This document shows, in pieces, positions 949-50,899 of a stretch of DNA of 64,000 bases. Made by a program: the position numbers and the translations under genes. This stretch comes from Hexactinellida sp. DTS-2022 (Eukaryota; Porifera; Hexactinellida), in assembly GCA_028753945.1 (NCBI GenBank), contig JAPNXP010000001.1:1302001-1366000 (forward strand), read 5' to 3'. The notes beneath the pieces are model-generated. The model ran no database searches, was not told the DNA's origin, and worked only from the letters and a program-made list of their open reading frames with translations. Within the stretch, counting starts at the first letter, position 1; each line of letters begins with the position of its first letter.

Positions 949-1707
949 TGTCAGAGGAGATCCTGTTCCCCCGTGAAAATTGTTCCCCCGAACAAAATTT
1001 CCTAGGGAATATTGTTCCCCTCTGCCTAATAGAAAATATTGTTCCCCCGAACAGTATTCACTAGGGAATACTGTTTCCCCTTTTAGTACAGTAATAATAT
1101 TAACATCCGTACAGTATGTTATATTGATATGACACAATCGAAAGTAAATTCGAGAAAATCCAATTAGTAGTTATCCATAAATTAATTAATTAAACAATTA
1201 TTAAACAGTATTACGCATTATTCTGCATTTATACATAACACAATGGAGAAATTTGACCATATTCCATATATTGAAAAGTAGACAACACATGTGTACTATT
1301 CAATACCTCCATATTCTCCTATATCTTCCGGGAGGAAAGTATACAGCAAATGTTCAAAGAGCGAGAAGTATGTAATAATAGGTAATTCATAACTTTTCTA
1401 CATATTCTAGTAACCTTAGTTCCATTTTGTATTGAGGGGAAGATAATTTTCTAGTGAATCTGCACTGTTCGGGGGAACAATATTTACTAGCGAATACTTT
1501 TCGGGGGAACAATATTTACTAGCGAATATTGTTCGGGGGAACAAAATTAACCAGGGGGAAACACTCTGGGGGGGGGGGTACATTATTCCCTAGGAAATAT
1601 GGTGTGGGGAACAGGATTTCCTAGGAAATATTGTTCGGGGGAACAGTATTTCCTAGGAAATCCTGTTCGGGGGAACAAAATATTTGGGAACAGGATTTAC
1701 TATGACA
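949..1707. mobile_element. Non-autonomous element A: TGT ends, GTTCGGGGGAAC hairpin arms
   Basis: The left end (TGTCAGAGGAGATCCTG) and the right end (reverse complement TGTCATAGTAAATCCTG) form a terminal inverted repeat. It continues into arms made of repeated GTTCGGGGGAAC palindromes separated by AATATTTCCTAG-like spacers, at about 960-1085 and 1460-1695. The 370-bp core is AT-rich and has no supported ORF. Flanks are CCAG (945-948) and CCGG (1708-1711), an imperfect 4-bp target duplication. It resembles the elements at 22909, 36890 and 48814. The superfamily is unknown. Confidence 0.7.
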
Positions 1708-1711
1708 CCGG

Positions 1712-2417
1712 ACTGGATCAAATCTGTATTATTTTTCTCCCATTTATTGTCATGTATTAAAAAAAAATTGATACTCACTCAATTAGTAAGAAATTGGATT
1801 TTCAATGTCAATTAAATAAGGAAATGCTTATATAGAGCTTATTCTACTAACTAGAGCAGTCGGTTGCTTTGCACTGATCAGTGATCACTCTCTCACAAAG
1901 TCCGCTTGGGAGACTTTGTCCGTTCTTGTAGGCATTAGACGACGCAATTATTAGCCGCTCTTCGCGGCCTTACAGTCCTAAATTCAGGAAAAAATTAATC
2001 TTACAGAAAGTACCTAGGCTAGTATTGCTATATTCCAAACCCACACTTAACAAAAACCTGTTGCTTTGTAAATTATACGTACCTACTTAATTAAGTTCAC
2101 TAACTATGTTGTTATACAGTATCTCAATACAGTCCTTGAAATTGTAGTAAATTTGTGTTTAAAACAAAAATACAGGAATAATTAGCAGGGCTAAATTTGG
2201 GGTTATTAAATATTCGCCTTTTCAATTTGCTTACTGAAGGTATAATAACTGAAGCCATAATAATGCCCAAATGCAGCCATATATATTCAATTGCCAATAT
2301 CATCCAATTGACAACCCCTCCCATAACATAGATAAATATTAAAATTATCCAATAAAATATCTAATATCTAGACACCAATCTAACTGTTTACACAGATGGC
2401 CCATATCGCTTCTTGTT
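1712..2417. other. Intergenic DNA
   Basis: No gene supported. It contains only a small hairpin near 1893-1922 (ACAAAGTC paired with GACTTTGT). A 66-codon minus frame here has no family features. Confidence 0.4.
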
Positions 2418-2870
2418 TGATTAGAGGTTTAGGCCAAGTACCATCCTCATTATGGGCCTCCAAGAGTACATCTTGTCTCGAAAACAGTCCGAAGTCTTGA
2501 GCTTCTTGATTAATAGGGCGCTGTGTAATGCTATGCCCGCGTGAGTGAACCAAAACACCCCAGCGAAATTAAACACATTCAGTTGATAAGACCCAGTGCG
2601 ATCTTTTGCAGAGCAGCATCTACCGTGCATTGTGGGTTCATAGGCCCAGACTCGGTCCCTCTGGGCTATCAGCTGTGATCTCTCCTCTCCACCCTCCTCA
2701 GGACTACAAATTAAGTCCTCATTGCGCATCAAGCTAATGCTCTATTTACAGGTCGATTAGATTATGGAACCTAATTTTGCCCCCTATCACCTCTTAATGT
2801 TCCCGAGTTCAACAAACGAAGATCTACTGAAATAAATTATCCCAAAATATGCAGTTCAAACATTTGGACA

Positions 2871-3677
2871 TCACGACAACTTGTCATTTACATGACTCAG
2901 AGATAACGGCCATATTTTGATTAGAGGTTTAGGCCATGTACCATCCTCATTCTGGACCTCTAAGAGTACATCTTGTCCTTCTAAAATTCCGAAGTCTTGA
3001 GCTTCTTGATTAAGATCTCTGATGAGCTCATAATTAGGAAACATTGTTCTGGAGTAAATTTGCGTCTTTTTCTTGGAATCAATGTTGTACACCTTTCTTA
3101 TCTTATTAACTATAGTACGGGCAGTATCACATCTTGACAATAATACTATAATGAAATCCTTCTGGCTAGAGTAGAGATAACACTTCAGTTCAAGAGGGTA
3201 GATCTCTACTTGACAACTTTTAACATACCTGCCATAATCTATAACTTGTCTCATGATCTTCATTGATCCTTCACTGATTCCGTACCAAGACAGGAGCTTA
3301 TTCCAAGCTAGTTCTGGTACTAGTTTGAAATGTGTCCCAACCTTTAGATCCCTTATTAACTTGCCATTCTCTATCAAAGATGTGTTGTCTATAGGACCCG
3401 GGTATACAGCCTCTTCTCCAGCTCTAGATTTATCCCAGTTGTCATACCCTACGTAACGCTTCCATTGTGTGTACCATCTTATATCGATTAGACACCATTT
3501 CTGACCTCTTAGTAGTACTTGCTTGAGGAGTGCATATATTTCTTGTTTTTGAGCTTTATATGAAGCTTGACTTAAAATTTCTATCTTTGTGTTCTGATTA
3601 CTATTAGACTCAGAATTTAATCGAATAGACTGAGTCAGGAGAGTAGCTTCTTCCACACACTCATCTTTTCTTGCCAT
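2871..3677 (-). CDS. DUSP-UBL module of USP4/11/15 type, left copy
   Basis: Open frame of 268 aa resembling the N-terminal non-catalytic part of the deubiquitinases USP4, USP11 and USP15. A DUSP domain (WCLIDIRWYTQWKRYVGYD, then YPGPIDN, WNKLLSWYG and CQVEIYPLELK) is followed by a ubiquitin-like domain ending NEDGTWP. In full-length USPs the catalytic Cys/His domain comes next; here the frame stops about 20 residues after NEDGTWP and no protease domain follows. The longest frame begins at GTG, so the first ATG (3675-3677) is used. It mirrors the copy at 3978. It may be a captured or duplicated gene 5' part; whether it is expressed is unknown. Confidence 0.72.
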   Translation of the reverse strand: MARKDECVEEATLLTQSIRLNSESNSNQNTKIEILSQASYKAQKQEIYALLKQVLLRGQKWCLIDIRWYTQWKRYVGYDNWDKSRAGEEAVYPGPIDNTSLIENGKLIRDLKVGTHFKLVPELAWNKLLSWYGISEGSMKIMRQVIDYGRYVKSCQVEIYPLELKCYLYSSQKDFIIVLLSRCDTARTIVNKIRKVYNIDSKKKTQIYSRTMFPNYELIRDLNQEAQDFGILEGQDVLLEVQNEDGTWPKPLIKIWPLSLSHVNDKLS

Positions 3678-3977
3678 TGTATCTTCTAACTCTGTCTTCA
3701 CACAAGGACCAGTGGATTAATTTTTGGGCAATGCCTTGTGCTTTACAGCTTTAGTATAAGATATAATAGTAACTTTAGTGTCTTCAGTAAAAACTCTATA
3801 GTAGTTCCTACTATAAGATGCACAGTTCTAAGATCGTTCTTGTCGTTCTTGTTTATACTGAAACACTAATGTTACTATTATATCTTAACATCTTAAAATA
3901 TCTTAATACTAAAGCACAAGGCATTGCCCAAAAATTAATCCACTGGTCCTTGTGTGAAGACAGAGTTAGAAGATACA

Positions 3978-4793
3978 ATGGCAAGAAAAGATGAGTGTGT
4001 GGAAGAAGCTACTCTCCTGACTCAGTCTATTCGATTAAATTCTGAGTCTAATAGTAATCAGAACACAAAGATAGAAATTTTAAGTCAAGCTTCATATAAA
4101 GCTCAAAAACAAGAAACATATGCACTCCTCAAGCAAGTACTACTAAGAGGTCAGAAATGGTGTCTAATCGATATAAGATGGTACACACAATGGAAGCGTT
4201 ACGTAGGGTATGACAACTGGGATAAATCTAGAGCTGGAGAAGAGGCTGTATACCCGGGTCCTATAGACAACACATCTTTGATAGAGAATGGCAAGTTAAT
4301 AAGGGATCTAAAGGTTGGGACACATTTCAAACTAGTACCAGAACTAGCTTGGAATAAGCTCCTGTCTTGGTACGGAATCAATGAAGGATCAATGAAGATC
4401 ATAAGACAAGTTATAGATTATGGTAGGTATGTTAAAAGTTGTCAAGTAGAGATCTACCCTCTTGAACTGAAGTGTTATCTCTACTCTAGTCAGAAGGATT
4501 TCATTATTGTATTATTGTCAAGATGTGATACTGCCCGTACTATGGTTAATAAGATAAGAAAGGTGTACAACATTGATTCCAAGAAACAGACACGAATTTA
4601 CTCCAGATGTATAACGCATATGTATACTACTTATGAGCTGATCAGAGATCTTAATCAAGAATTTGCAGACTTCGGAATTTTAGAAGGACAAGGTGTACTC
4701 TTACAGGTCCAGAATGAGGATGGTACATGGCCTAAACCTCTAATCAAAATATGGCCGTTATCTCTGAATCATGTAAATGACAAGTTGCCGTGA
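3978..4793 (+). CDS. DUSP-UBL module of USP4/11/15 type, right copy
   Basis: 271-aa partner of the 2871-3677 frame, divergently transcribed from a shared 300-bp centre. About 15-20 residues differ, including SMKII for SMKIM and a rearranged stretch near the UBL (CITHMYTTYEL versus TMFPNYEL), yet both frames stay open with the DUSP signature (RWYTQWKRYVG, YPGPIDN) and the UBL end (NEDGTWP). Known role of the module: substrate and partner binding and regulation of USP catalysis. Inference: if translated, a stand-alone DUSP-UBL could compete with the parent USP. The catalytic domain is absent. The longest frame starts at GTG (3954); the first ATG is at 3978. Confidence 0.72.
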   Translation: MARKDECVEEATLLTQSIRLNSESNSNQNTKIEILSQASYKAQKQETYALLKQVLLRGQKWCLIDIRWYTQWKRYVGYDNWDKSRAGEEAVYPGPIDNTSLIENGKLIRDLKVGTHFKLVPELAWNKLLSWYGINEGSMKIIRQVIDYGRYVKSCQVEIYPLELKCYLYSSQKDFIIVLLSRCDTARTMVNKIRKVYNIDSKKQTRIYSRCITHMYTTYELIRDLNQEFADFGILEGQGVLLQVQNEDGTWPKPLIKIWPLSLNHVNDKLP

Positions 4794-5282
4794 TGTCCAA
4801 ATCTTTGCATATTTTGGGATAATTTATTTCAGTAGATCTTCGTTTATATGAACTCGGGAACATTAAGAGGTGATAGGGGGCAAAATTAGGTTCCATAATC
4901 TAATCGACCTGTAAATAGAGCATTAGCTTGATGAGCAATGAGGACTTAATTTGTAGTCCTGAGGAGGGTGGAGGGAGAGATCACAGCTGATAGACCCAGA
5001 GGGACCGAGTCTGGGCCTATGAACCCACAATGCACGGTAGATGCCAGTGCTCGACAAAATGAAATTTTGATGGTGGTTAATTAAGCCACCACCTCACTTT
5101 TTCTGGTGGCTAAAGAATAAACAACGGCCGATTTAACAAACCACTGATGAATAACAAAAATCTAATGCCTAGAAAAACACTCATATTTATAGCAAATAAT
5201 GCAGCGATAAATATAATCTACACCACGTCAAATAATCCACAATTCTGTATGATTGTGAAGTTAGCAGTGAAAAAAAACAAAA

Positions 5283-5595
5283 AACCATGTGCAACTTAAC
5301 ACCCTATAACTTAGTCATACATCATCCGATTGAGGTGCCATTTGGAATATATCAATATCAGCCTAGGAGGTTTCTGTCATTTTAACTAGAACTCTCCCTA
5401 ACACCTATATACCAGACAGTGACATAGCAAATATTGCTATATTTTGACAAAAAAAATTGTTTCTGAAAACCATGTGCAACTTAACACCCTATAACTTAGT
5501 CATACATCATCCGATAGAGGTGCCATTTGGAATATATCAATACCAGCCTAGGAGGTTTCTGTCATTTTAATTTTATCTCAATCTGACAACTCAGT
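5283..5595 (-). repeat. Subterminal tandem repeat, left side, about 1.7 copies
   Basis: Two copies of the ~185-bp unit found at 9847-10805, here in opposite orientation. They begin near CCATGTGCAACTTAACACC at about 5283 and 5470. They form part of the transposon's extended inverted terminal region. Confidence 0.85.
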
Positions 5596-5922
5596 GACAC
5601 AGGGTGACATTGCAAAAATACACCAGACAGTAATCGGTTAAATTATACAAAATATGTAGATGTCTTTGAATCTGTTATCGTATGCTCGAAAATTTGTTTT
5701 ATAACTCACACAATATGAATTCGTATAAGATTGTTATTTCTTAATTATTATGTAATAATAATAATACGTGTATACAGTATATTAATAAATTACTTCAATT
5801 TCCATTGTAGTTACATATAGAGCTTCTTTATCATATGCGTGATCATAAGCGTAATTATATAACTAACATACTATTATTCATTTGATATTCATCAAATTTA
5901 TAATATTGTCCTACCTCGAATC

Positions 5923-6449
5923 ATGTTATTATTTTCACTTTATTTTCGCATTATTTTTTTATTCCACGATGTTTCTTTGGTACTCCGAAGCAGAGTGGAC
6001 CATGGGTCGATGGGTCATGGGTCATGGGTCAGATGGGTCACCTAAATCGATGGGTCAGATGGGTCATGGGTCACGGCTCCGTGACCCATGACCCATGACC
6101 CATTAGGAATTTCAATGTATTCTTCAGTTAAATACGAATCACTCATCATCATCATTATTATTATAACATTTAAGTGCATTGAAAGACTAAACATATTCAA
6201 CATTGCAACAAGTAGGTTTGTTGAGGTAATTTACACTGTTATTCTGTTAATGTTACAGTATAGTATATAGATATTTAAAATTGTGTGATGGGTCAATGGG
6301 TCACTCGATGGGTCATGGGTCAATGGGTCAATGGGTCATGGGTCAGAAATGGGATGGGTCAGATGGGTCATGGGTCACCAATGTTGACCCATGGTCCACT
6401 CTGCTCCGAAGTGGTGATATTGAAATAAACCCTGGACCTTTAACACAAG
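5923..6449 (+). pseudogene. First exon of the transposon gene with a 2A-like peptide, split by a MITE
   Basis: An ATG at 5923 opens a hydrophobic leader. When the 413-bp insertion (5991-6403) and one target copy are disregarded, this leader reads in frame into a 2A-like motif, GDIEINPGP, at 6413-6439 (consensus D-V/I-E-X-N-P-G-P, which causes ribosome skipping between G and P). The motif is 24-32 residues from the start. The exon ends at a splice-donor-like CAAG/GTAAGT (6449/6450); a candidate acceptor is CTAG at about 6517. N-terminal 2A peptides with a signal-like leader are known from non-LTR retrotransposons and from immune receptors of marine invertebrates; here one sits in a DNA transposon. 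The insertion destroys the frame. Confidence 0.7.
5991..6403. mobile_element. hAT-like foldback MITE of ATGGGTC words
   Basis: The 413-bp insertion has terminal repeats CAGAGTGGACCATGGGTC and GACCCATGGTCCACTCTG and an 8-bp target duplication CTCCGAAG (5983-5990, 6404-6411). The arms are iterated GATGGGTCATGGGTCA words (5999-6105, 6285-6395); the core is AT-rich. The 8-bp duplication and CAG end fit the hAT superfamily. It encodes nothing. It is younger than the transposon exon it interrupts. Confidence 0.85.
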
Positions 6450-6517
6450 GTAAGTAATTTCTGAAGTTAAATATTAACTAATTTCTATCCAATTGTTATT
6501 CTCTAACGATTTCTAGT

Positions 6518-8900
6518 TGATGGAAATTCTCGAAAGAATATGCAATATCTAATTGTGAATGCATTGTTTGCTTTGGAAATCGAATGGTCTGAAGTACCCA
6601 AATACAATTTGGGGTAAGTTATCTAAATATATATTTGGTAGAAATCGTGCTTGTCAACGTGCAAAAATAATGAACATATGGCGCAAAACCCAAACACAAA
6701 TTCATCATAAATTTCTGAGCTTTCAGATGTCCGATGAATCTGATAAACCTCTTCAGAATTCACCAATTAGTATTATTTTTCTACTATTCCCAGCAACATA
6801 TTTTCTCACTCCAGTTGGAAGATCTCTTATTTCACAATCTCAAAATATTGCTCTAGACAATTTAGAGAGTCTTAGTACAAGTAGTACCGATTCAATTTTA
6901 CGTATATTCATGCTGAGGAAAGAGACCATAGCTCCTTACCTATTTCGTCCGCCTACCTTGTTGAAGAATTTGGAATGTTTTCTCCCGTGTGCAATTTGAA
7001 AACAAGCAAAATTTCAGATAGGAACAACGAGAGCAAATTTGAATGTCCAAAATCTTTTGAATTCTCAATGAATAAAAGTGAATGGGATATTATATTGCCA
7101 AAAATTAATTGAAAACAATTGAAACCCGGATGGACGAACATTTTTTGTCAATTTTTTTCAATTTTTTCTCCTTTTTGCGTCATTAAATTTCTCTACCATC
7201 GTATTAACAAATCTACTATCGGAAATTGGTCATTTCTTGTTGGAGAAGCTATTTGTAAATTCAAGAACTGTTTAAGATATGAATTTCGGATAAACGGTAT
7301 TACTAATCCTGCAACAGAAAATACTTTTGTTAAAGTAAATGTTTTAGGATCGATTTCTTGCCAGCAATTTGATGACATAACATCATATTCGCGAAAATTG
7401 TCTGGCCAAGTAAGGAAATTAGTTGCTGGAAAATTGGTTCATAATTCTGCGAGTAGTATCCATTACAAACAATTCGAAAAATATAGTAGTTTAGATGTTG
7501 CAAAGCATGGTAATCTGAACTTTCTGAAATCCCAAGAGGTCTTTCGCAAAGTTATATCAGAACATGATTCAAATAGCAGATTAAGTGATGATATGTGGCA
7601 AGATATCATAGTCACTCAAAGGACCTATGATAGTAATATTAAAGGAGCTATTCTTAATGGTTATATACAGACCATATCTCGATATCCAATTGTCATCCAT
7701 ATGCATACGGAGGAACAATTACGTATTATCAAAAAATTCAACCTGGAAACTTGATAATGCATTTGGATGCAACTGAATCAATTGTAAGAAAAATGGACAA
7801 ATTTCACAAGAGAATCTTGTATTATGCTTTAACAGTGAGACATCCTGAAGCTAAAACTTACCTAATTCCGCTTGATGAGATGATAAGCAGTGAACATCTA
7901 ATGTTGAAATTTTTCCTAAGCAAATGGTTCTATAATCTATAATGTAAAAAAGGTATTAAATAAAGTTACTATTATTACATATGTTGAGGTAGATTTTAGC
8001 TGGGCTATGTTACACAGTGTTTCCAACAGCTTTAATACACAAACTCTAGACTTATACTTGGATGCTTGCTGGAAAAGAATTAACAAGAAAGAAATTGGTA
8101 TCAACAGTATTAAAATTTAAAACCACGATTCATATATGTTCAGTACACATAATGAACCGTTTCAGCTACAAGATTGAACGTAAATTAACCAAAAGGCCGA
8201 CAAAAGAGACTAAACGAGTGATGATGTTTATAATGGCACGGATTATAAGTTGTACAACTCTAGAGGAAGTAGACCAATTATTTACATCCCTGGGCATATT
8301 GTGTTTATCTCAAATGAGATACCCTGAAGTTGAGCAGTACTTTAAAAAATTGAGAATGCATTATTTCATGATGATGAAAATTATGAACTCGGAATGGATT
8401 GTTTGTCAGAAATTGATGAGGAATTATATATTGAATTAGGAGATAGTATGACATATAAAAATAGGTCTCCCTTTGGAAGACATTTTGATTCCATTCTACA
8501 GAAAAGTAATTCCTTCGTACAACATTTGCAAACTCGACGTCAAACTACGCATCTGGAAGTGAACAGCAGATATTTTTAACCGAATTTGCCTGAGTATTTG
8601 GTAACACATTACATGCCCATATGTCCTTTATGGACCGGAATGATTATTGGTGCAACTTTATTCCCTGGAAAAAATTAGATGTCACTTTTACGAACTCTAT
8701 TGTGGAAAATTGGATGAAAATAAAATTGAGGCCAGATGACTTTATAAGAAAAATTTATGAAGGAATTTCAGGTAGAATTAAAGCATTCGATTTTGCTTTT
8801 CTTCCAATTAGCACCAAGGTATTGAAGAGAATCAAGTTAAAGATAGAAAGCGATAACACACAAATCGAGGAAATCTGGGAAAGACGCAAGAGAAAGTGAA
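6518..8900 (+). pseudogene. Transposase remnant of the 5.9-kb element
   Basis: A series of partly overlapping plus-strand frames (6559-6999, 7119-7754, 7751-7942, 8062-8439, 8394-8579, 8621-8899) reads as one protein broken by frameshifts and stops. Recognisable parts in order: SYSRKLSGQVRKLVAGKLV (near 7400), HMHTEEQLRIIKKF (7700), LDATESIVRK (7760), PLDEMISSEHLM (7880), VDFSWAMLHSVSNSF (7989) and a CSVHIMNRF-like patch (8140). The acidic DATESIV and DFSWA patches look like DDE-type catalytic positions. Candidate introns lie near 6450-6517 and 6615-6725. No single intact ORF remains, so the element cannot be autonomous. The family name is uncertain. Confidence 0.6.
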
Positions 8901-8920
8901 GTTATTTCAAACAATGCCAA

Positions 8921-9699
8921 TTGTACAAAACAAAGTTTAGTGAAATAAATACGAAACAAAATAAACTCACTAAACCTGAGCAAAAAAAGAAAATAAGAAG
9001 AGGGAGAAAGTTCAAGAATACAAAAATATCAGAAAATCTTCTCAATGATATGCAAAGTGATGATAGTATCTCCGATCTAGTAGTACATGATGTTATTTTT
9101 TATGATCACGGACAATTTTCTCCTGTACTTCTGATTGGCAACGCCAAAAATGTAAGAATTTATGTTTACATATATTCTGGGTATCATTTATGAGAATGAG
9201 GCTTTTGATAAAAGTTTAGAGATTCGAAAGTTCAAAGGAAAAGCGAGTATCTTCCGATGGAAATTATCTCTTTAGTTCACTATCTTATGTTGTTACTGGC
9301 TCAGATCATTATCATAAATAATTTAGAGAGTTGTTAGTTACCAATATGAAAAATAAATATCGAGCAGAATGTACGAACTATTGCACAGCAAAATACGATT
9401 TACTTCCCGAGAAGAATTGTGATACAATAGAAGAATATATAACTGTAAGTATGATGGATCGAGTAAGGTCGTGGGGGACAGACTTAGAATTGTTTTTAGC
9501 AGCTCAACTCCTTAAAACGGATATTTTCGTATTCAAAGATGTAAATCTTTGCTGGAACAAATTTTCAGGCTATGGGTTCAATGACAAACAAAATGTACAT
9601 GATTTAACTGAGAGAAGGTTGTATTTGCGATTATATTTCAGTCATTTTCAACCAGTGACAAAAGTCAATACAGTAGAGAATGTGATGAATGATACGTAG
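8921..9699 (+). pseudogene. Linker and inactive OTU-like protease domain of the transposon
   Basis: A lysine-rich linker (8921-9193) is followed by an OTU cysteine-protease-like domain. The catalytic-loop box reads DGNYLFSS at about 9256-9279 where active OTU proteins have DGNCLFRS, so the nucleophile Cys is Tyr (TAT, one transition from TGT). An in-frame TAA follows at 9319-9321. Downstream, EEYITVSMMDRVRSWGTDLE and ELFLAAQLLKTDIFVF match the usual OTU core WGxxxELxAAxxLxxxIxV. OTU domains occur as accessory deubiquitinases in several eukaryotic transposons. Here the domain is dead both by the residue change and by the stop. Confidence 0.65.
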
Positions 9700-9846
9700 T
9701 TACATAGAAGAATTTGATCCAATTCAATAAGAAACTTTTCACTTTTATATAGACAGTAGAGTTTAGAAATCGGTTTGAATTAAGCTATCACTTATATGGT
9801 AATTTTATATCAGTAATCTAGAATACCTGTATTATTAGACATGACT

Positions 9847-10805
9847 ATGACTAAGTTGTAGGGTGTTAAATTGCACACGGTTTTCAGAAACCATTTTTTT
9901 TGCCAAAATATAGCAATATTTGCTATGTCACTGTCTGGTGTAGAGGTGTTAGGGAGAGTTCTAATTAAAATGACAGAAACCTCCTAGGCTGAAATCATCT
10001 GAGTCCAAATGGCACCTCAATCGGATGATGTATGACTAAGTTATAGGGTGTTAAGTTGCACATGGTTTTCAGAAACAATTTTTTTGCCAAAATATAGCAA
10101 TATTTGCTATGTCACTGTCTGGTGTAGAGGTGTTAGAGAGAGTTCTAATTAAAATGACAGAAACCTCCTAGGCTGAAATCATCTGAGTCCAAATGGCACC
10201 TCAATCGGATGATGTATGACTAAGTTATAGGGTGTTAAGTTGCACATGGTTTTCAGAAACAATTTTTTTTGTCAAAATATAGCAATATTTGCTATGTCAC
10301 TGTCTGGTGTAGAGGTGTTAGGGAGAGTTCTAATTAAAATGACAGAAACCTCCTAGGCTGAAATCATCTGAGTCCAAATGGCACCTCAATCGGATGATGT
10401 ATGACTAAGTTATAGGGTGTTAAGTTGCACATGGTTTTCAGAAACAATTTTTTTGCCAAAATATAGCAATATTTGCTATGTCACTGTCTGGTGTAGAGGT
10501 GTTAGAGAGAGTTCTAATTAAAATGACAGAAACCTCCTAGGCTGAAATCATCTGAGTCCAAATGGCACCTCAATCGGATGATGTATGACTAAGTTATAGG
10601 GTGTTAAGTTGCACATGGTTTTCAGAAACAATTTTTTTTGTCAAAATATAGCAATATTTGCTATGTCACTGTCTGGTATATAGGTGTTAGGGAGAGTTCT
10701 AGTTAAAATGACAGAAACCTCCTAGGCTGAAATCATCTGAGTCCAAATGGCACCTCAATCGGATGATGTATGACTAAGTTATAGGGTGTTAAGTTGCACA
10801 TGGTT
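9847..10805 (+). repeat. Tandem array of a 184/185-bp unit, about 5.2 copies
   Basis: Unit starts (ATGACTAAGTT) lie at 9847, 10032, 10216, 10401, 10585 and 10770, giving spacings of 184-185 bp. The first unit is the most diverged. It is inverted relative to the copies at 5283-5595, so the pair makes long foldback-capable ends of the transposon. It is a satellite-like transposon end, not a CRISPR array: there are no unique spacers. Confidence 0.9.
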
Positions 10806-11137
10806 TTTTCACTGCTAACTTCACAATCATCAATTCATGATAGATTAGTTAAGCCACCAAAGGAAATATTTGGTGGCTTGAATAAGATTTTTGGTGGCTA
10901 ACGCCACCAAACCACCTAATTTGTCGAGCACTGGTAGATGCTGCTCTGCAAAAGATCGGACTGGGTCTTATCCAACTGAATGTGTTTAATTTCGCTGGGG
11001 TGTTTTGGTTCACTCACGCGGGCATATCATTCACAGCGCCTATTAATCAAGAAGCTTATTATACTTCGAAAGTTTTCAGGAAAATATGTACTCTTAGAGG
11101 CTAGAATGAGGATGGCACTTGGCCTAAACCTAATTAA

Positions 11138-17615: not shown

Positions 17616-18679
17616 TTGCTGTGTTTCCAACATAATCGCTATTTATATGTGTATATTTGTATAGTAACATTATGTGAGAATAGGAATTTTATTACAGGTG
17701 TAGCTCTTTATTGAAGTTGATAGTTGCGATTTGCGAAGGAATTTCGATTATTAACCTATCTTGATTTCGTCACACTCCGTACCATTAGCCCCCTATCTCC
17801 GCCTGATAATTTTATTGAGATATCCTCGATCAACATTTACCCTCCCTGACCGAAAAATGAAAGGAATATATGACATTTTCCGGACGCATATTTTGGTCGA
17901 AAATTGGCAACCAGGGATATCATAGTATTTCAAAAGGTGTTGAATGGTAAATTTTATTTTGGAAAATGACACTTTGAGATCTTGGAACAATAAATTGCGC
18001 ATGCCCATATATGGCGCAAGGTCATATGAGGAATTGTGGGCGAAAATGCTTATTTTCAGAGTTATAGTGTTTTGATGTATTACATAGTTGTGTATAGTAT
18101 ATCATGGATTGCATGCAAAATTCCGTTGAGAGCTAAGCTCTAGCTCAACGGAATCAAAAGTTAGAAAACAGTTTTTAGTTTCTGTTATGACCATATAGGA
18201 GACAAACGCGCATATTGTCAATTTTGGAGATACAACAATTTTTGAGTATTATTGTAATTTATTGGGGTATTGTAATTCGATGATTTATATTCTAAAACCG
18301 TCTAGATCTGAAGCTAGCACTTTCGCTTCGCGCGAACTTGATGTGGAAAACACGATTACCATATTTGGTATTTGTGGTTATAAGTCAGCCAGATGTTGTG
18401 ATTTTGATCTAAAATTTTTGAGTATTATCTACGGATCATTTGCTTGCGGAAACTTTAAAGCTAAGCTCTAGGACAAGTTTAAAAAATGACCATATATGGT
18501 CAAGTACCCGAAATAACCGTTTAGAAGAAATTTTCTATGACTAGCACCACATATGAAACCATATGTTCTCATTATTTTCATAATATAATTCTAGACCATA
18601 ACTGTTATATTTCTCTTAAAACCATGGATATTTATTGATTTTGTCGCATAATTGCACTTTTTAGAATTTTATAAGTCTT
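17616..18679. other. AT-rich intergenic DNA
   Basis: Probable AP4M1 3' UTR, then unassigned AT-rich DNA. A short perfect-stem hairpin lies at 18121-18155 (TTCCGTTGAG paired with CTCAACGGAA). Frames here have no family features. Confidence 0.4.
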
Positions 18680-18684
18680 ACAAT

Positions 18685-19746
18685 AGTAGGGTCAAAAATG
18701 AAGGTTCCGTGACCAACCTCTGGCTAGTTAAGTTTTATGCCTGATTCTGAAACTTTAGGATATAACTCGCGATTTAAGCTCCCATGCCGCTCTGGAAAGT
18801 TTGGGCAAACTTTTTTATAGCGACAAATTCAAAGGGCCTCCGGCAATCATTTTGAAAAATTAAGGCCCCTCTCTGAACATTTCATAAATTGAGATTAGAG
18901 TATTTTTGAACAGTATGCAATAAGTAGTAGCTGCACTGAAAATTTCAACTCAATCGGGACTATACTTTTAATGTAGTAACCTTTTGAAGATTCTTGCGTA
19001 ATTTGTCACCATGGGAGGTCCCTTCTTTAAACTATTTTTTTAAGGGATTTGAAGCATATCTCATCCTATATACATGCAATAACCTTTTAACTCGCTATGT
19101 AGTATGTCTCCATGTAAATCTCGGTAATAGACCTAAATTTACCACTTTGACTCTTCTGGAGATCTCACATGGGGGTGACGAAGCAAAGAAAATTGACCCA
19201 TAATCGTTTTAATCGGCCACTTTATATATATAATTATCACAATTTTGACGCCAAATGACTGGATTTTTTAATTTTTGTATAGTCAAAGTGGTAAATTTAG
19301 GTCTATTACCGAGATTTACATGGAGACATACTACATAGCGAGTTAAAAGGTTATTGCATGTATATAGGATGAGATATGCTTCAAATCCCTTAAAAAAATA
19401 GTTTAAAGAAGGGCCCTCATGGTGACAAATGACGCAAGAATCTTCAAAAGGTTACTACATTAAAAGTATAGTCCCGATTGAGTTGAAATTTTCAGTGCAG
19501 CTACTACTTATTGCATACTGTTCAAAAATACTCTAATCTCAATTTATGAAATGTTCAGAGAGGGGCCTTAATTTTTCAAAATGATTGCCGGAGGCCCTTT
19601 GAATTTGTCGCTATAAAAAAGTTTGCCCAAACTTTCCAGAGCGGCATGGGAGCTTAAATCGCGAGTTATATCCTAAAGTTTCAGAATCAGGCATAAAACT
19701 TAACTAGCCAGAGGTTGGTCACGGAACCTTCATTTTTGACCCTACT
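18685..19746. mobile_element. 1.06-kb foldback element
   Basis: Two arms of about 470 bp (18685-19152 and 19273-19746) are near-perfect reverse complements around a ~120-bp loop. The ends are AGTAGGGTCAAAAATGAAGG, flanked by ACAAT (18680-18684, 19747-19751), a 5-bp target duplication. No coding capacity. Autonomous partner unknown. Confidence 0.85.
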
Positions 19747-19896
19747 ACAATTGAATTATATTATTTAGAAAGTATCTATAATTATGTTTTTGGTATGTGT
19801 GAACTATGAGGGACTATATTGACATTCTATTTTATCATTCTGACTCAATTATACTTTATCAGAACTAAATACAATGCTACAATATCAGAACTAAAC

Positions 19897-22212: not shown

Positions 22213-22326
22213 TATATCAAACAAGGAACGTTTTCTTTCAGTTGTCCAATTTTATTAGTGGTGTACTTTTGAACAGTATTTATACTTTCCAATTATCAAG
22301 TGTGGTTTCACATATACTATTATGGC

Positions 22327-22640
22327 ATGGATTCAAATATCATTACTGTAGAGTGGTTGCTTAGTTCAAATTGCAAAATGGTTTCAAATATCTTTGTTGT
22401 ATAGTGGTTGCTTATTTCAAATTGCAAAGTGGTTTCAAATATCTTTGTTGTATAGTGGTTGCAAAGTGATTTCATAGCATTTTTGTATAGCAGTTGCTAA
22501 TATAGAATTCTGATATACTACTTTCAAATAACATTATAGTTTTGTGGTTACTAAAATAGAATTTCTAAAGTGTTTTCAAATATCATATAGTTTTGTGGTT
22601 GCTAGGTTCTGAATTCAAAACGATTGCAAAGATTGTTCGT
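22327..22640. repeat. Subterminal-type tandem repeats of GTGGTTGC-TTTCAAAT words
   Basis: About five degenerate copies of a ~60-bp unit (GTATAGTGGTTGCTTATTTC followed by AAATTGCAAAGTGG). They lie just upstream of the Mutator-like transposase and could be its subterminal region. Confidence 0.6.
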
Positions 22641-22649
22641 ATAACACTT

Positions 22650-22800
22650 GTATTTTCTCAACTCATTTTGAGTTGGCAAAACAACTAATTTTTGTCTACC
22701 AACTCATTCAACTCATTCATTTTGCTGTTACCAACTCATTCAACTCATTCAAGAAAATGAGTTGATTCTGCCAACTCAAATTAGTTGATACAACCCTGCC
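22650..22800. repeat. CAACTCATT inverted/tandem repeat
   Basis: CAACTCATTTTGAGTTGG and its complement are interleaved with direct CAACTCATTCAACTCATT copies. The right end, read in reverse, is CAGGGTTGTATC, as in many hAT ends, but the left end is unclear. Confidence 0.5.
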
Positions 22801-22908
22801 GGGCAATGAAACTGGGATTATTTTGCTAATATTTTTATTGCTGTATAATTCAAATTTTTCGATTTTTGAAATTCTGAGTTTCTACGTCCTTCTTAGAATA
22901 ACTAGTAC

Positions 22909-32154: not shown

Positions 32155-35100
32155 CACGGTTCGTTATTCTAGGTACGGAGGGTAATCTGTGCCGCGCAAC
32201 TTTTGAGCTACTAAAAAGTTTGTAGCACATGACTTAAATAATTTCTGAAATTTTAGCCGACGGGAAAAAATCGTTTTCTTAACTTATGCCTCTTTGAATT
32301 TTTTTTGAATTTTTTCATATTTTTCTTGACAGTCACCCCATAAGCCTATTTATTGACATTTTGTGTAGATATTCTTGCTATTATGCCCTAAATCCATTTA
32401 TAATTGACTTGTATTAGATTTCTTTATAATATGGAGTGGGTGTGTTAGGTAGTTCTAAATCTTTGGCTGAATAACTATAAGGTGATCACCGGTGCCATTC
32501 TCAGAGCCCCCCCTACTTCAGAACTAAATTATGAACACTTATGCATCTCCCATTGGGTTACTACTTACTAACCAGTTAGTACACATATCTATGTAATTTT
32601 ATATATATATAACTATTAGAAATGGATACTGCTTAACAGTCCTTAAACTAACTAATTGTCAGGAAGCAATACTAAATATTTCTTCCTATATTTGATAAAT
32701 ATAAAATTATAGACAAAATTACAACTATTTCATTTACACGTACATAATAATACTCTAAGTCTAAGTTATGTCTCATCTATAAATTACTTTGGAAGAAACC
32801 AAAATGCAAGCTATTTTACTTAACAACTGAGCGTAGAAGTCTATGTTTACCAACGAATAAACCGAAGGATTTATTGAAACTATGGTGACAACTTTCAAGA
32901 ACTTGTTCTGAAAAATATCCAAGCCCCAATTGTTTTTGATGTTCTTGAAACTCGTTAATTTTAATCAGGTATTTTTCCAAGTGATCCAACAGAAAGTGAA
33001 TTTTAGGTGTTGGTCTAGTGATCTCCATAACATGCTGAAGTGCCTTTTCAATTTCTTTGTCTATAGTAGCCCTACTAGCTACATTATCTTTCATAACTTG
33101 CTCAATTGCTATTTCTTTAAAAGTTTCCCGCATTTTTTGGTACGCATCTTTAAAGTTAGAAATGCTGCTTTGCCAACCTTCTTTCAGTTCTCTCCCAAAG
33201 ATTTTATGAACAAGTATGGAGGCGCACTGTAAAACTGGTACAATTGGTCGTATACCTTGGAATTTTTGGAGGTCAATTAGATTTGCATTGTCAAGGAGTT
33301 TTAGACTAGCACTTCCTGTATAACTTCCACCGTGATATTGTTGAGGTGGACCTACAACTGGCTCTATCCACTCAAGTTGTAGGTTTCTGAAATCCAGAGG
33401 GCCCAAAATCTTCCCTGCTAACCTATCAATGAGTTTTCTCTTAGTCCTAATTGAGCGTGACTGCAGCGATCGGAAATGATAATGCTGGATTTTGAAAATG
33501 TAAGAGGGGAAGTGCTTCAACACCATAGCATTCTTTTGCATGATTTGGATTACCTTGATACTCACACTGCAGTTTTTCCCACATTTTCTCGAAATGAATG
33601 CCTGATCTAGGGAATCCCGTTTCTTCAGTTGTTCTCGAGTAAGTACAGTAAGGACATGGGTATTTTGCAGCACCTCCACGTAAACCACAAATCATGCTTA
33701 TGACCTTTAGATCAGATGTAAGCGTTGTCTTGGGATCAGTTAGATCAAGAGTCGGAAATAACTGAAATTTTTTCCTTAAGTTTTCCCTTGTTTCAGGAGC
33801 ATTTGTAACAGCGACTAAAAGGCAACCCTTAACACTGTCAATATAATCTAAATTATACGTCAGTTGTAGCACAACTTTGAGAAACCCTTTTCCATGATCT
33901 ACACCCCAACGGTAATACTCTGTATTGATCAGACGTTTACCTTCAGTCCTTCGAATAAGCTCGGGTATATCATTGCAATAAACAATCTCGGTCTCCTTTT
34001 CTATGTATTTCTCATCTTCTTCGTGTAATTTGGCTCGATGTTGCAGAAATATTTGATTTTCTGTGAAAAGGTCTCCAATTTCGATTTTAAGAGCATTCAG
34101 GGCGCTACGAGGATTAGGTGTCATGAGGCCGTGATTATTCATCCATTTACAAATTTTGTTCAAACCATTATCAGATATAGCAAGATCGATCTTCAACTGA
34201 ATAGTATCTTCGGTACTTACTGATGGGTTGGCAGGTAAGCTACCGTAACGTCCATTCAATAGCCTAACTTTAAGCGAATCTACTTCAACTTCTGGTGATT
34301 TTGTATTACTCGCAAGTTTTCTTAGAATATTGGCCACTACTTCGTTAGTAATTCCCTTCCTTTCCAACATTTCAACAGCATTCTGAATTGATTGCTGCCT
34401 ATTGCACTCATGAGCAACTGGTTGGGTGCTTAAGCATTTTGAACACTTTGCAGGAGTGCTGTGATTCTTGAGGTAAGTAGACTTTGAAGATTCATCATCT
34501 GAATAAGATATTTGGTCTATTACTTCGGAGGATTTCGAGTCACAGGAATCTTTTATTAACCGATTAACTCCACGACACCCACGATATATTTCGCAAACTA
34601 AACAATTTTCAGAGTCATGAGTACGTGTTACACGACGAGAGTTATCACCAGTTCCTAGAATACCAAGTTTAGGGGGTTTGAACACCTTGGGGTTATCAAT
34701 ATGTCGATGTAATGATGAAGCACATCCTTTGCATATCCGAGTTAGGTAATATGATTGAGATTGTTCCTCTATTACGTCAATACAGTAAACATTATGTAAC
34801 CATTGTTGGCGGTCTTGATTGATTGGTCTTAGATTTTCAGATTTTTGTTTTTTACAACAAACACGACAAATATGTCCTGTAGCTTTTAAATGGTACTCAC
34901 TCATAATATCGAAATATTGATATTTTGGAAATAGATTAGGAATATAATCTCACGGTTATCAAAAAAAGTGAAATGTGATAATAGATAGAAGCGTTTCAGT
35001 ATATATTGAATATATACAATGCATAGTATATTACATTTCTCAAAAAGCATAGGTAAAATAGCTAGGTCTTCAATTTCATGGTAAAATTAACATTTTGTAC

Positions 35101-35777
35101 GCTCAGTTGTTAAGTACAATAGCTTGCATTTTGGTTTCTTCCAAAGTAATTTATAGATGAGACATAACTTAGACTTAGAGTATTATTATGTACGTGTAAA
35201 TGAAATAGTTGTAATTTTGTCTATAATTTTATATTTATCAAATATAGGAAGAAATATTTAGTATTGCTTCCTGACAATTAGTTAGTTTAAGGACTGTTAA
35301 GCAGTATCCATTTCTAATAGTTATATATATATAAAATTACATAGATATGTGTACTAACTGGTTAGTAAGTAGTAACCCAATGGGAGATGCATAAGTGTTC
35401 ATAATTTAGTTCTGAAGTAGGGGGGGCTCTGAGAATGGCACCGGTGATCACCTTATAGTTATTCAGCCAAAGATTTAGAACTACCTAACACACCCACTCC
35501 ATATTATAAAGAAATCTAATACAAGTCAATTATAAATGGATTTAGGGCATAATAGCAAGAATATCTACACAAAATGTCAATAAATAGGCTTATGGGGTGA
35601 CTGTCAAGAAAAATATGAAAAAATTCAAAAAAAATTCAAAGAGGCATAAGTTAAGAAAACGATTTTTCCCGTCGGCTAAAATTTCAGAAATTATTTAAGT
35701 CATGTGCTACAAACTTTTTAGTAGCTCAAAAGTTGCGCGGCACAGATTACCCTCCGTACCTAGAATAACGAACCGTG
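32155..35777 (-). mobile_element. Chapaev-like DNA transposon with ~678-bp terminal repeats
   Basis: Ends CACGGTTCGTTATTCTAGG and its complement. The inverted arms run from 32155 to about 32831 and from about 35100 to 35777. Target duplication TATT (32151-32154, 35778-35781). The 3.6-kb element encloses one minus-strand transposase. CAC-type ends with 4-bp duplications are characteristic of the Chapaev group of the CACTA-like superfamily. The arms look nearly identical over their length, so the insertion is probably recent. The left arm includes the last few codons and the stop of the transposase, so the right arm carries the same coding end. Confidence 0.85.
32816..34904 (-). pseudogene. Chapaev-like transposase, one frameshift
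   Basis: Frame 1 runs from the ATG at 34904 to a stop at 33447 (485 aa), frame 2 from within 33688 to 32816. Homology must pass between them in the overlap near 33450-33510 (around LLHFQNPALSF). Seen: an N-terminal Cys-rich finger (ICRVCCKKQK, ICKGCASSLHRH); CGLRGGAAKYPCPYC, a zinc ribbon common in Chapaev/RAG1-related transposases; ECYGVEALPLLHF; YHGGSYTGSASLKLLDNAN; and the C-terminal KIHFLLDHLEKYL and LGYFSEQVLESCHHSF motifs. No obvious intron accounts for the shift; programmed frameshifting, sequence error or a recent disabling mutation are all possible. Confidence 0.75.
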
Positions 35778-36344: not shown

Positions 36345-38340
36345 TCTAGACTAAATTCGGTTAGCCGGGTAACCGCTTAACCGCTGCTAATATTGGTTAA
36401 CTGTTACAGATTTAATTGAGTAGTTAACCGGTCTGTTAATCTAGTTAAATAATATCAATGTAATTGCGTATATAGAACACTAAATTATATGAATTTTGTT
36501 AGAATATGGTAATCTTAGATCTACGTATTTCATACGTAGTAAATTCCTATAAACCAAGGGTGAGGTTGTTATTGTTAACCGTTCTGAGGTTACAGTTATG
36601 ATTCGTTTTGTTTATACTATCCATAAGTAGTACATTAACTAATATATTTCGCAATTTGGGCAAGTTAGAAACAGTGTAGTTACAGAAAATATACATATAA
36701 TGTGGTCATTGTGGTGATGAGAAATGGATTTATGATAATCTTTTCCAACAAAATTCAGATATTTTTAATTATTTTTATGTACTTTCTCACTACTCCCAAC
36801 AGAGGTGTTCCGATTCAAAAAAATTATGTTCCGAACTTCCGATTAGTGAATTCGTTCTGATTAGTGAAGTAATACATTTTCTATTGGCCTGTTGATGGGA
36901 AATGGACCCCGTGGGAAATGGACCCCCCTAATTAAGTGACCATGGATATGTTCAGGGGGGGTCCATTTCCCACGGGAGTCCATTTCCCAGACGTATGCGT
37001 GGGATTTGGACCCCCCTTGATATTATGTTATGATAATGTATTACTAGTCATCCTGTTATGAAATACTTTGTACATATTAATGTAGACTAGTTCTCAATCA
37101 ACTAGTTCTTGAATGAAGTTGATTCCATCAAATCAGGAACCGTGAATGAGCTAATAAGTATACTCAAAAAACGACAATCCAAATTGGTAAATATGCAGTA
37201 ACAATTAGGCAGGAAATTCACAATTCAACTCAACTAAAGGAAGACGCACCAAATTTTGTGCTCAGTTAGAATGTATTTATTGAAAGTCAACAAATTCCGT
37301 TCTTAGATAACAGGTGATAATTGTATTTCATAACAGGATATGACTAGTAATACATTTTCATAACAGGACATTGAGTAATGTATTTTCATATCAAGGGGGG
37401 TCCAAATTCCACGCATACGTCTGGGAAATGGACCCCCGTGGGAAATGGACCCCCCCTGAACATATCCATGGTCACTTAATTAGGGGGGTCCATTTCCCAC
37501 GGGGGTCCATTTCCCATGCAACAGGCCTCTATAACATGAGATTCCGATAATTTGGATAAAACTTGTCTAAAACCTTTTAAACCAAACTAAACATGTAGTA
37601 TACTACCTAATAATTGTCTGAGACTTATTAATTTATTATTCCATTGTAATTTACGTTGGATCTCCTGTTCGGACTAGCGAGGATGTACTGTAAGATAATT
37701 TCCAAATAATACTGCTGATTATCAACAGACCGGCTAACTGGTTAACGAAATCTGTAACCGCTTAACTTAACTTAACTGTTGATATTAAATATCGATTTAA
37801 TAGCAACAGTTAAGCTGTTAGCCAGCCGGTTAACAAATCCAGCCTTGTATAAACAATAGTTAAGGGTGGGGTCGGTTAACCGTTTGAGGCCACGGTTACG
37901 ATTGTCTTAACACTACGGTTAACCGGTTAACCGCCACTGAAAGTTAAAACAAAATATATAGACATTTCTCTGAAAATATTTAAATTGTAGTCCGACACAA
38001 ATACATTCTTTTTACAAGTACTCTATAAGTACAATTAACATACGTACAAGTTTATCACTTCAGGTTACTTCTACACTGTTGTCCAAAAATTTGTACTTCT
38101 AATTGTAATATTAACATATCGGTTAACTGATCACTAAATCCGTAATAGTTAACCGGTATTAGCGGCGGTTAACCGAATCCAGCCTTGATTTAATATTTTC
38201 TGAAGGACGAAATGTAGCAGTAGTAAGGAATAAAAGCAAAGCTGAACCTACTAATTATGTAGTATAAATAAATGTTCTACTGTGCTGATCAGCATGGACG
38301 GTTAACAGTGGCGAGAAATTGAATCGTAACCGTAGCCCCA
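36345..38340. repeat. Composite repeat rich in GGTTAACC words, probably hAT-related
   Basis: Many copies of GGTTAACCG and its variants at 36360-36450, 37730-37940 and 38120-38175. One block ends CAGTGGCGGTTAACCGG on the minus strand (37920-37945), as in hAT ends; two others end CAAGGCTGGATT. It is split by element C. No transposase is visible. Confidence 0.55.
36890..37523. mobile_element. Non-autonomous element C: TGTTG ends, TGGACCCCC arms
   Basis: Ends TGTTGATGGGAAATGGACC and complement of TGTTGCATGGGAAATGGAC, with GGCC on both sides (36886-36889, 37524-37527). The arms (about 130 bp) iterate GTGGGAAATGGACCCCCC. The ends are clearly related to element B, but the arm word differs. Inside, a second inverted pair occurs near the arms (ACGTATGCGTGGG / CCACGCATACGT), as in B. 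Noncoding. Confidence 0.85.
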
Positions 38341-41433: not shown

Positions 41434-41435
41434 TA

Positions 41436-47216: not shown

Positions 47217-47384
47217 CAGTCGACTCCGGTTAATAGATTTGCCCGCTTAATGGGGTCAAAATTTCACAGGATTTATAGGACGGAATGACAGTTTGACTTA
47301 AAATATTTTCGGTTAATATATTTCTCTGCTTAATCGGGTCAAAGGTAACCTGGTCCCGAGGTGACTATTAAGCGGAGTCGACTG
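47217..47384. mobile_element. 168-bp pogo-like MITE, TA duplication
   Basis: Ends CAGTCGACTCCGGTTAATAG and complement, flanked by TA. Same family as 14906-15007 with a longer interior. Confidence 0.85.
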
Positions 47385-48639: not shown

Positions 48640-49094
48640 TCTTGGATTCAGTCTAGTATTGGAATGTCTTACAGTAATTAATTAATACAAAATTAGTCTG
48701 TAAGTTGGCCTTCCTGAAGTTATTTACAACCTAGGTATCCAAACTTTTTCCATTCACGACCCTATTTTTTGGTTCGACACACTTGTCCAAAAGCCATCAA
48801 AATCCGGTTCCGGTGTAAACGCGTTTTGGGGACGCCCAGCGTTTTAGGAACCACGTCCCTAAATCGCTAGCGTTTTGGCCCCCCTGGGCTTTAAAACACT
48901 AGCGATATAGGGACGGGGGGTCCCTAAAACGCGTCTCGCGACCCTGGTATGAAGAACCAGGCTTTCATCAAGGCAAAAAATTTTAAGTTTGAGCTCACTC
49001 ACACGCGCCTAAAATACTCAATTTGTATTACGTCGTCTATGGGAGCATCTCTCGATTTTCGCGCGCCTAGAAAAGTTTCCTTTCAAAATAACGC

Positions 49095-49136
49095 GCCTGG
49101 AGCCTGGAGCCTGGAGCCTGGAGCCTGGAGCCTGGA
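49095..49136. repeat. Microsatellite (GCCTGGA)6
   Basis: Six perfect 7-bp units. Confidence 0.95.
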
Positions 49137-49513
49137 TGAAACCCTGTGAAGAACCTGATTTATACTATTCTAAATTCTTCCAACTTATCTATTGTAGTTT
49201 ATGTCTGCGTGCACACCACGATTAATTGAGGCATAATTCACTTTCTGAGATTATATGAATTCTCTGTGTCACCAAACTAGTCCCGAGAACAAGATTGGTC
49301 CGGTGTGAAGTGAATCAGAGAATCCTGTTCCTCAAGCAATATCCCTTCGGAATAATGGTCCTCAAACAAAATTTCGAGATAGAGACAGTTTCGATTTATT
49401 CGTGTATTGAAATGGTAGACACTATATTCACTCATTCAAAAAAATGCGCCTAGATTTAGTTTGAGCTCGCTCATACGTGCCTAAAATACTCCATTTGTAT
49501 TACGTCTATGAGT

Positions 49514-49931
49514 TGTCACGGAAATTTTGGTCCCCTTGGAAAATTGGTCCGGGGGGACCAAAATTTTCATGGAAATTTGGTCCTTCTGTGGAAAATTGGT
49601 CCCTCTGAGGTTTGTGTTTATTAGTTGCCGTATTTACTAGAATAGTAGCCTAGGCAATTTTTCGTCTTATTGGGGACAAAAAAAAATTATGAATAAGCCT
49701 GTCACTGGAAAATTGGGTCCCGAAAAATTGATCCGGGACCAAAATTCCATGGAAAACTGGTCCTAGGACCAGTTTTCCATGAAATTTTGCTATTGGTCCC
49801 CGCGGACCAATTTACCTGAAAAAATTGGTCCGGGGGACCAATATTCCATGGAAATGTGGTCCTAGGACCAGTTTTCCATGGAATTTTGGTCCCCCGGACC
49901 AATTTTTTCGGGGACCAATTTTCCAGTGACA
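49514..49931. mobile_element. Nested element E: TGTCAC ends, TTGGTCC hairpin words
   Basis: Left end TGTCACGGAAATTTTGG, right end the complement of TGTCACTGGAAAATTGG, with an inner start of the same end at 49700. The 232 bp from 49700 to 49931 are mostly interleaved palindromes of GGTCCTAGGACC and CCATGGAAAA words. A possible GAGT duplication (49510-49513 and 49933-49936, one base offset) is weak. It was inserted into sequence related to 49033-49085. Confidence 0.65.
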
Positions 49932-50899
49932 GGAGTATCTCTTGATTTTCCGCGTTTAGAAAAAAATCCATTCAAAATTACGCGGCTCGCATGTGTCTGG
50001 ATGAACCTTGTCTGGTATTCACCGTGTTTCCAAAGGGTTGTATACAGTGTTTTTTTAAGGATTTGCTTAGGGGCCCTACCAACAATTAGAGGCCCTCACT
50101 CTACATTTCATGATATTGAGTACTTAGCACGTTAAAAATTAGAGGCCCATTGAGAAAAATTAGAAGCCCATTTTGGGCCTCTAATTTGCCTTAAAAAAAC
50201 ACTGGTTGTATATCAGTAGACTTTTCTATTATTATTATTTTTAGTTATTGCACAGTTTATAAATTATTGCATATAAGGCAGGTGTAAGCGCTTTGGGGAC
50301 CCCAGCGTTTAGGCAACTTTTTGTAAGCACAAAGCGTGATATTTTGTCCTTTTTTTGAAAACAAGCGTGAGATTTTGACTAAAAAGCGTGGAAAACAATT
50401 TTTCACCACAAAAATCAGTATATTGAGGGGTTTTTTTAGCGTCCACCCCTTAATTTTAGCTACTTTCTCAGGCGCGGGACGTCCTTTCTAACGTGAGGTT
50501 TTGAATGTAAGCGTGAGATCGTGAGATTTAGAAAAAGCGTGAGATTCACGCCTAAAGCGTGATAATTGGCAACCCTGATCCGTCCCCATATCGCTAGTGT
50601 TTTAAAGCCCAGGGGGGCCCAAAACGCTAGCGATTTAGGGACGTGGTACCTAAAACGCTGGGGTCCCCATAACGCGTTTACACCGGATTATGGTGATAAA
50701 CAGATAATCCCTTTTGATACTATTATAATTAGACGGATCTTTCAGTTACTGCGTGACAGATCTAATCAATAGAATATAATTTAGTTACAACCAGGAATAA
50801 TTTTGACTAGGCAGTTTTGCTATTCCTCATTCCTTACCTTAGTTACTCATTATTTATATCAGCTGTTAGCCTGTTACATTAGTATCGCTATTTATTCCC

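Follow-up and report, generated by a model that had tools for sequence, protein, structure and literature searches.

The window analysed here, a stretch of 64,000 nucleotides from contig JAPNXP010000001.1 of the sponge Hexactinellida sp. DTS-2022, contains five elements, A to E, that begin with TGT and end with ACA. They carry no genes of their own and are non-autonomous inverted-repeat elements. Element A (949-1707, 759 bp) has TGTCA ends and is flanked by CCAG on the left (945-948) and CCGG on the right (1708-1711). Its terminal inverted repeat (TIR) is imperfect, the two arms aligning locally with a score of 125, and in its arms GTTCSSSSSGAAC-type palindromes alternate with TTTCCTAGGAAA palindromes. 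Element B (22909-23805, 897 bp) possesses TGTTG ends and GTAC on both sides; its inverted repeats comprise an outer TIR of ~89 bp and an inner inverted pair (23253-23347/23613-23707). Element C (36890-37523, 634 bp) belongs to the same family as B, with TGTTG ends, GGCC on both sides and a TIR identical at 174 of 201 columns. Element D (48814-50682, 1869 bp including the nested elements E and G) has TGTAA ends, CCGG on both sides and a TIR of ~103 bp (99 of 104 columns identical). For these four, the coordinates, TGT starts, ACA ends, inverted ends and flanking 4-mers are those of the original prediction. Element E (49514-49931, 418 bp), nested in D and absent from that earlier list, is related to A and has TGTCA ends and a TIR identical at 61 of 73 columns. 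Its flanks, GAGT and GGAG, can be read either as an offset 4-bp pair or as GGAGT minus one base, and a paralogous, unfilled copy of its insertion site is located at ~49007-49060. A separate element at 49700-49931 (E2) was considered and rejected, its flanks being mismatched (AGCC/GGAG), and this segment is taken as part of the long right arm of E. TGTNR is present at both termini in all five elements.

The flanking 4-mers are exact duplicates at B, C and D and differ by one mismatch at A. The proposal that the targets are self-complementary 4-mers holds at the three exact duplications, while A is imperfect and E departs from it. Self-complementary 4-mers represent 6.86% of all 4-mers of the window, and the chance of finding them at three of three sites is ~3e-4, or ~3e-3 for at least three of five with A and E scored as misses, figures that concern five insertions only, picked by the reader after looking at the sequence. 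The CCAG at A is one CpG transition away from CCGG and may derive from it. A strict scan of the window (ends 80-4000 bp apart, a 16-bp TIR with at most one mismatch and an exact 4-bp duplication) yielded six matches: B, D, three within A's own repeated arms and one within the foldback at 18684-19747. The same scan gave 0 matches in 60 dinucleotide shuffles, and under each of two looser settings there were eight matches, where the shuffles averaged 0.05. The strict setting passes over C, which has a 1-base deletion in its left arm, and A, with its CCAG and CCGG flanks.

A palindromic duplication is indistinguishable from an additional inverted repeat, and such matches are frequent within the window's long inverted repeats, where many self-complementary 4-mers mimic duplications. 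The flanking 4-mers might then be the outermost bases of the inverted repeats, and the target rule an artefact. This is very improbable, as the homology between B and C extends from TGT inwards, while the next four bases differ (GTAC and GGCC) and the farther flanks are unlike; the element boundary was set at TGT for this reason. Furthermore, D and A are flanked by CCGG/CCAG, CCGG being the published target of Ginger1 transposons, described below.

The arms of A to E are built of short words that are iterated in both orientations within each arm. Seven stretches were folded, namely the left arms of A, B, C and D, two pieces of E and the left part of a comparison element, F; each of the seven is more stable than all of 200 shuffles (z from -3.8 to -13.0). 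The count of self-complementary 8-mers lies above the 95% threshold set by 300 random stretches (0.296) in eight of the ten arms of A to E, the exceptions being the left arm of A (0.14) and the right arm of D (0.23). Element F (5991-6403) exhibits CAGAG ends, an 8-bp duplication (CTCCGAAG) and arms of iterated ATGGGTC words (18 copies on the plus strand, 4 on the minus strand). A second comparison element, G (50045-50204), nested in D, has CAGTG ends and the 8-bp duplication GTTGTATA. An 8-bp duplication together with CA.. ends is the rule for hAT elements, and F and G appear hAT-like by these features. Arms rich in G-run words had been put forward as a trait of the TGT class; since F, whose ends differ and whose duplication is 8 bp long, harbors such arms as well, they are not a mark of this class and were rejected as its defining trait.

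The earlier account had B and C sharing only their outer 20 bp. Their homology in fact spans the whole arm, with 74 of 102 columns identical in the right arms and 69 of 106 in the left arms, and the right-arm alignment scores 117, where the best of 500 shuffles reached 47. The arm pairs of A and E align with Z values of 13.7, 12.2, 12.0 and 4.7. Within both pairs, the arms are homologous and the repeated word differs coherently, copy by copy. Position 3 of the word is an A in 9/9 copies of B and a G in 10/10 copies of C, and position 9 is a T in 9/9 copies of B and a G in 10/10 copies of C; word copies from opposite arms of the same element are not independent, as these arms are near copies of each other. 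In the A/E pair, TGTTC[CG]{2} occurs 17 times in A and never in E, TGGTC[CG]{2} never in A and 12 times in E, TTTCCTAGG six times in A and never in E, and TTCCATGG never in A and six times in E. These differences look like concerted change, in two families (B/C and A/E). That arm words differ between members while the ends stay was correctly perceived; a wholesale replacement of the word is contradicted by arms that stay alignable and by word copies that differ in step.

A/E resembles B/C weakly (Z 1.6 to 5.5, judged against single-base shuffles); for A versus B/C, the resemblance (Z up to 5.5) could stem from G/C runs present in both and was not counted as homology. D has no convincing similarity to the other elements (Z -0.7 to 4.2). 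Judged by their sequences, the five elements do not form one family but two related pairs, B/C and A/E, with D alone. The grouping of A to D into one class stands for the TGT/ACA ends and the mostly 4-bp self-complementary duplications, without making them a single family. Two or three unrelated superfamilies could have arrived independently at TGT...ACA ends and 4-bp duplications, A/E and D being moved, for example, by a Ginger1-type enzyme and B/C by another. The isolation of D, the weak resemblance between the pairs and the different targets (CCGG, GTAC/GGCC and GAGT/GGAG) make this a possibility of some weight, roughly one chance in a few. Conversely, the same TGTNR ends occur in 5/5 elements, and transposon families of one superfamily often have little in common beyond a few terminal bases.

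The original prediction recognized no described superfamily in these traits, yet TGTNR ends together with a 4-bp, mostly CCGG, duplication already characterise a published group, Ginger1 (Bao, Kapitonov and Jurka 2010, PMC2836005). As described in the accessible part of that paper, Ginger1 elements have TGTNR ends, TIRs of ~40-270 bp and 4-bp duplications of CCGG (75%) or CCGT/ACGG (24%); their transposase is Gypsy-integrase-like with an OTU or Ulp1 domain, and non-autonomous copies are reported from lancelet. The sponge elements resemble Ginger1 in their ends, in the length of the duplications of A to D, in their TIRs (~89 bp in B and ~70-200 columns across C, D and E, within or near the Ginger1 range) and in the CCGG target of D and of one half of A. 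If CCAG is a decayed CCGG, A fits the Ginger1 target. The flanks of B (GTAC), C (GGCC) and E (GAGT/GGAG) fall outside the published target set, and these three elements were not filed as Ginger1 for this reason; word-array hairpin arms are also not mentioned for Ginger1 in the same part of PMC2836005. D fits Ginger1 in ends, duplication length and target and is a candidate member of the superfamily; B and C agree with it in their termini and in the length of the duplication, though not in target. A new superfamily, recognised by TGT...ACA ends and a 4-bp target of any self-complementary sequence, is unlikely. It would accommodate the three self-complementary duplications, with their chance of ~3e-4, and the occurrence of GTAC and GGCC, not among the published Ginger1 targets; however, a group with such ends and the CCGG target has already been described, the flanks of E are not self-complementary, and the rule is drawn from the same five insertions chosen after looking.

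Other described systems share some of these features. Ginger2/TDD, in the accessible part of PMC2836005, has TGTNR ends, 4-5 bp duplications and a target with a self-complementary core (TATA within RTATAY), but this AT-rich target is found at 0/5 sites of A to E. IS481EU/Banshee elements have TNT..AYA or TGT..ACA ends and, in some families, 4-bp duplications; they differ by their parabasalid hosts, by duplications of ~15 or 25 bp in other families and by TIRs mostly shorter than 50 bp (PMC10045372, as far as accessible). IS481EU, KolobokP and the coral CMITE were considered as closer matches and, from the accessible descriptions, fit no better. Among the matches listed in the literature search, partly titles and the first lines of abstracts, no description of these elements or of Ginger in a sponge was found.

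The surroundings of B hold another candidate enzyme. An ORF at 19897-22224, ~685 bp from B, codes for a transposase with a strong match to PF20700 (E 1.4e-51), accompanied by a weak PHD match, and B could be a Mutator-type (MULE) derivative moved by it. Type 2 foldback TIRs, long and with subterminal repeats, are common in mosquito MULEs: according to the accessible part of PMC5225508, Muta1 of Aedes aegypti has long TIRs made of a terminal motif and many short subterminal repeats, and many non-autonomous derivatives. Its repeats are tandem and 12 bp long and its duplications are 8-9 bp, as in mosquito MULEs, whereas the words described here occur in both orientations and the duplications at B and C are 4 bp. 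The 8-10 bp duplication typical of Mutator is likewise absent at B, C and D, where it is 4 bp, and no clear TIRs frame the PF20700 ORF in 17650-22905, among 25 of 26 inverted pairs. The MULE origin of B is therefore highly improbable.

With a confidence slightly better than even, A to E are considered to be non-autonomous cut-and-paste DNA transposons of integrase (Gypsy-integrase-like, Ginger) type. Their transposase would come from an autonomous relative at another place in the genome. Once bound to the word arrays of both arms, it would draw the two ends together; the 3' ends would be processed at the CA of TGT...ACA and joined to the target DNA with a 4-bp stagger, generating the 4-bp duplications. 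A two-fold symmetric enzyme would prefer self-complementary targets, such as CCGG (D and, originally, A), GTAC (B) and GGCC (C). As each arm contains its word in both orientations, it could fold into a hairpin, and pairing, gene conversion or template switching between word copies may keep them alike. If copies are kept alike, a change in the word appears everywhere in the element.

The ends and landing sites partly match Ginger as described in 2010, and the notable part is the coherent difference in arm words between related elements. Were these words transposase-binding sites, B/C and A/E would illustrate how a word can change in every copy at once with no alteration of ends or layout, and such concerted change would help to explain specificity shifts and the escape from cross-mobilisation in transposon families. 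If a Ginger-type enzyme moves B and C, the range of targets known for TGT...ACA elements with 4-bp duplications would be extended by GTAC and GGCC; otherwise, further gene-less elements are added to a described kind. A bolder proposal, put forward with low confidence, is that of an integrase-type lineage with a general preference for self-complementary 4-mers as targets, its putative transposase-binding word being swapped as a unit by concerted evolution with the TGT and the arm layout kept. Related families would then be different "keys" on the same chassis, and a natural series for transposase/binding-site co-evolution.

Exact patterns for the B/C end and for the D end gave 0 matches in viral_contigs and genome_contigs, collections that are viral or prokaryotic and say little about animals, and one arm word each of A and C gave 0 matches in viral_contigs, with the same restriction. 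Among 27 ORFs tested of the 58 of at least 90 amino acids in 1-50800, none harbors an integrase domain. An OTU match at 9325-9696, inside a different element, is weak and stays below the cut-off (E 0.0044).

The window is eukaryotic and animal-like, with adaptor mu-subunit, FYVE, DUSP, signal peptidase, acyl-CoA dehydrogenase and cadherin domains found by Pfam search. Its gene-less TGT...ACA inverted-repeat elements A (949-1707, flanks CCAG/CCGG), B (22909-23805, GTAC on both sides), C (36890-37523, GGCC on both sides) and D (48814-50682, CCGG on both sides) lie exactly where the original prediction had placed them, and that observation is largely real. A fifth element, E (49514-49931), is nested in D and has TGTCA ends flanked by GAGT/GGAG. 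A paralogous copy of its surroundings, lacking E, lies ~500 bp upstream and points to a short target duplication near GGAG(T), of 4 or 5 bp and not self-complementary. D also contains, at 50283-50320, a second partial copy of its own left end in direct orientation (TGTAAGCGCTTTGGGGACC), perhaps left over from an older nested or recombined copy.

A strict scan (TGT..ACA, 16-bp TIR with at most one mismatch, exact 4-bp duplication) yields six matches, namely the whole elements B and D, three within A's arms and one within an unrelated foldback, versus none in 60 dinucleotide shuffles; each of the looser settings gives 8 matches, where the shuffles average 0.05. Since only 6.86% of the window's 4-mers are self-complementary, chance would rarely make all three exact duplications so (~3e-4), or at least three of five (~3e-3), bearing in mind that a palindromic duplication is indistinguishable from a continuation of the inverted repeat and that the scan frequently meets spurious ones inside long inverted repeats. 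The self-complementary flanks attributed to the class hold for B, C and D, but not for E, and those of A are mismatched. Homology between B and C runs inward from TGT while the sequences outside are unlike, and the TGT boundary is therefore sound.

Comparison of the arms (the inverted end regions) gives two related pairs. The likeness of B and C, previously confined to the outer 20 bp, extends end to end over the whole arm: 74/102 columns are identical between right arms (score 117, maximum 47 in 500 shuffles) and 69/106 between left arms. The four A-E pairings (Z 13.7, 12.2, 12.0 and 4.7; 60 shuffles each) indicate that these arms are related, whereas D stands alone (Z -0.7 to 4.2 with the other four elements). 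The short words iterated within the arms differ coherently. Allowing up to three substitutions, B holds 9 copies and C 10; position 3 is A in 9/9 versus G in 10/10, position 9 is T in 9/9 versus G in 10/10, and position 8 is A in 7/9 and T in 2/9 of B versus T in 10/10 of C. In the A/E pair, A contains TGTTC[CG]{2} 17 times and E does not, E contains TGGTC[CG]{2} 12 times and A does not, TTTCCTAGG is present six times in A only and TTCCATGG six times in E only. For both pairs, copies from an element's two arms are non-independent, and palindromic words are counted on both strands. Independent re-amplification of the B and C words seems less likely than concerted change, because the arm layout is conserved.

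Single-strand folding was applied to the left arms of A, B, C and D, to two parts of E and to the left part of F; all seven sequences come out more stable than each of their 200 shuffles (z -3.81 to -13.00). Self-complementary 8-mers lie above the 95% level obtained from random stretches in 8/10 arms of A-E, the left arm of A and the right arm of D being the exceptions. Such G-run hairpin arms had been taken as a mark of the TGT class, but F (5991-6403; CAGAG ends, 8-bp duplication CTCCGAAG) carries them too. Together with G (50045-50204, nested in D; CAGTG ends, 8-bp duplication GTTGTATA), F is presumably hAT-like. Its arms iterate ATGGGTC (18 copies on the plus strand, 4 on the minus) and its left part folds more stably than any of 200 shuffles (z -3.81); iterated G-run word arms thus occur in this genome in transposons of more than one type. 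F sits, immediately ahead of a DIEINPGP motif that resembles a 2A peptide, within a large element (approximately 5246-10834) whose tandemly repeated inverted arms (5279-5619 versus ~9846-10809) enclose an ORF run with a weak, below-cut-off OTU-like match (9325-9696, E 0.0044).

The superfamily had been considered unrecognised, which is not supported: the DNA transposon group Ginger1 has TGTNR ends, TIRs of ~40-270 bp and 4-bp duplications that are CCGG in 75% and CCGT/ACGG in 24% of 112 Hydra elements (PMC2836005). D agrees with it in ends, CCGG duplication and TIR length, as does A provided that CCAG is a decayed CCGG, possibly altered by CpG transition. B and C agree in ends and duplication length but not in their targets, and E agrees in its ends, its duplication being uncertain. 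From these shared traits, we call A and D Ginger1-like, whereas B, C and E are Ginger-like only at their ends. Two aspects merit genome-wide attention, namely the words that change coherently in two families and the targets GTAC and GGCC. Positions 1-50800 contain 58 ORFs of 90 aa or longer; testing 27 distinct ones revealed no integrase. Behind the ends, flanks, nesting and word coherence seen directly in the elements may stand an integrase-type transposase supplied by an autonomous relative, which would bind to the word arrays, synapse the two ends and integrate at a symmetric target with a 4-bp stagger; a homogenising process would act on the word copies. Arms in this style have a precedent: long TIRs of subterminal repeats are described from mosquitoes as type 2 foldback ends of Mutator-type elements (PMC5225508).

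Other features were observed in the window. A 775-aa ORF (19897-22224) strongly matches a Mutator-like transposase (PF20700, E 1.4e-51) and has a C-terminal PHD-like finger; no clear TIRs framing it were found. A CAC...GTG element (32155-35777) has 680-bp TIRs (679/681 columns identical), a 4-bp duplication TATT and minus-strand ORFs of 485 and 290 aa, the first weakly matching DUF1280 just below cut-off (E 2.6e-05); its ends are reminiscent of CACTA/Chapaev-type elements. A foldback (18684-19747) with arms of ~467 bp (465/469 columns identical) is flanked by CAA, or by ACAAT with the end taken one base inward, and 2616-5044 is a near-perfect inverted duplication of a gene piece with DUSP and ubiquitin-like domains (2871-3701 versus 3954-4793).
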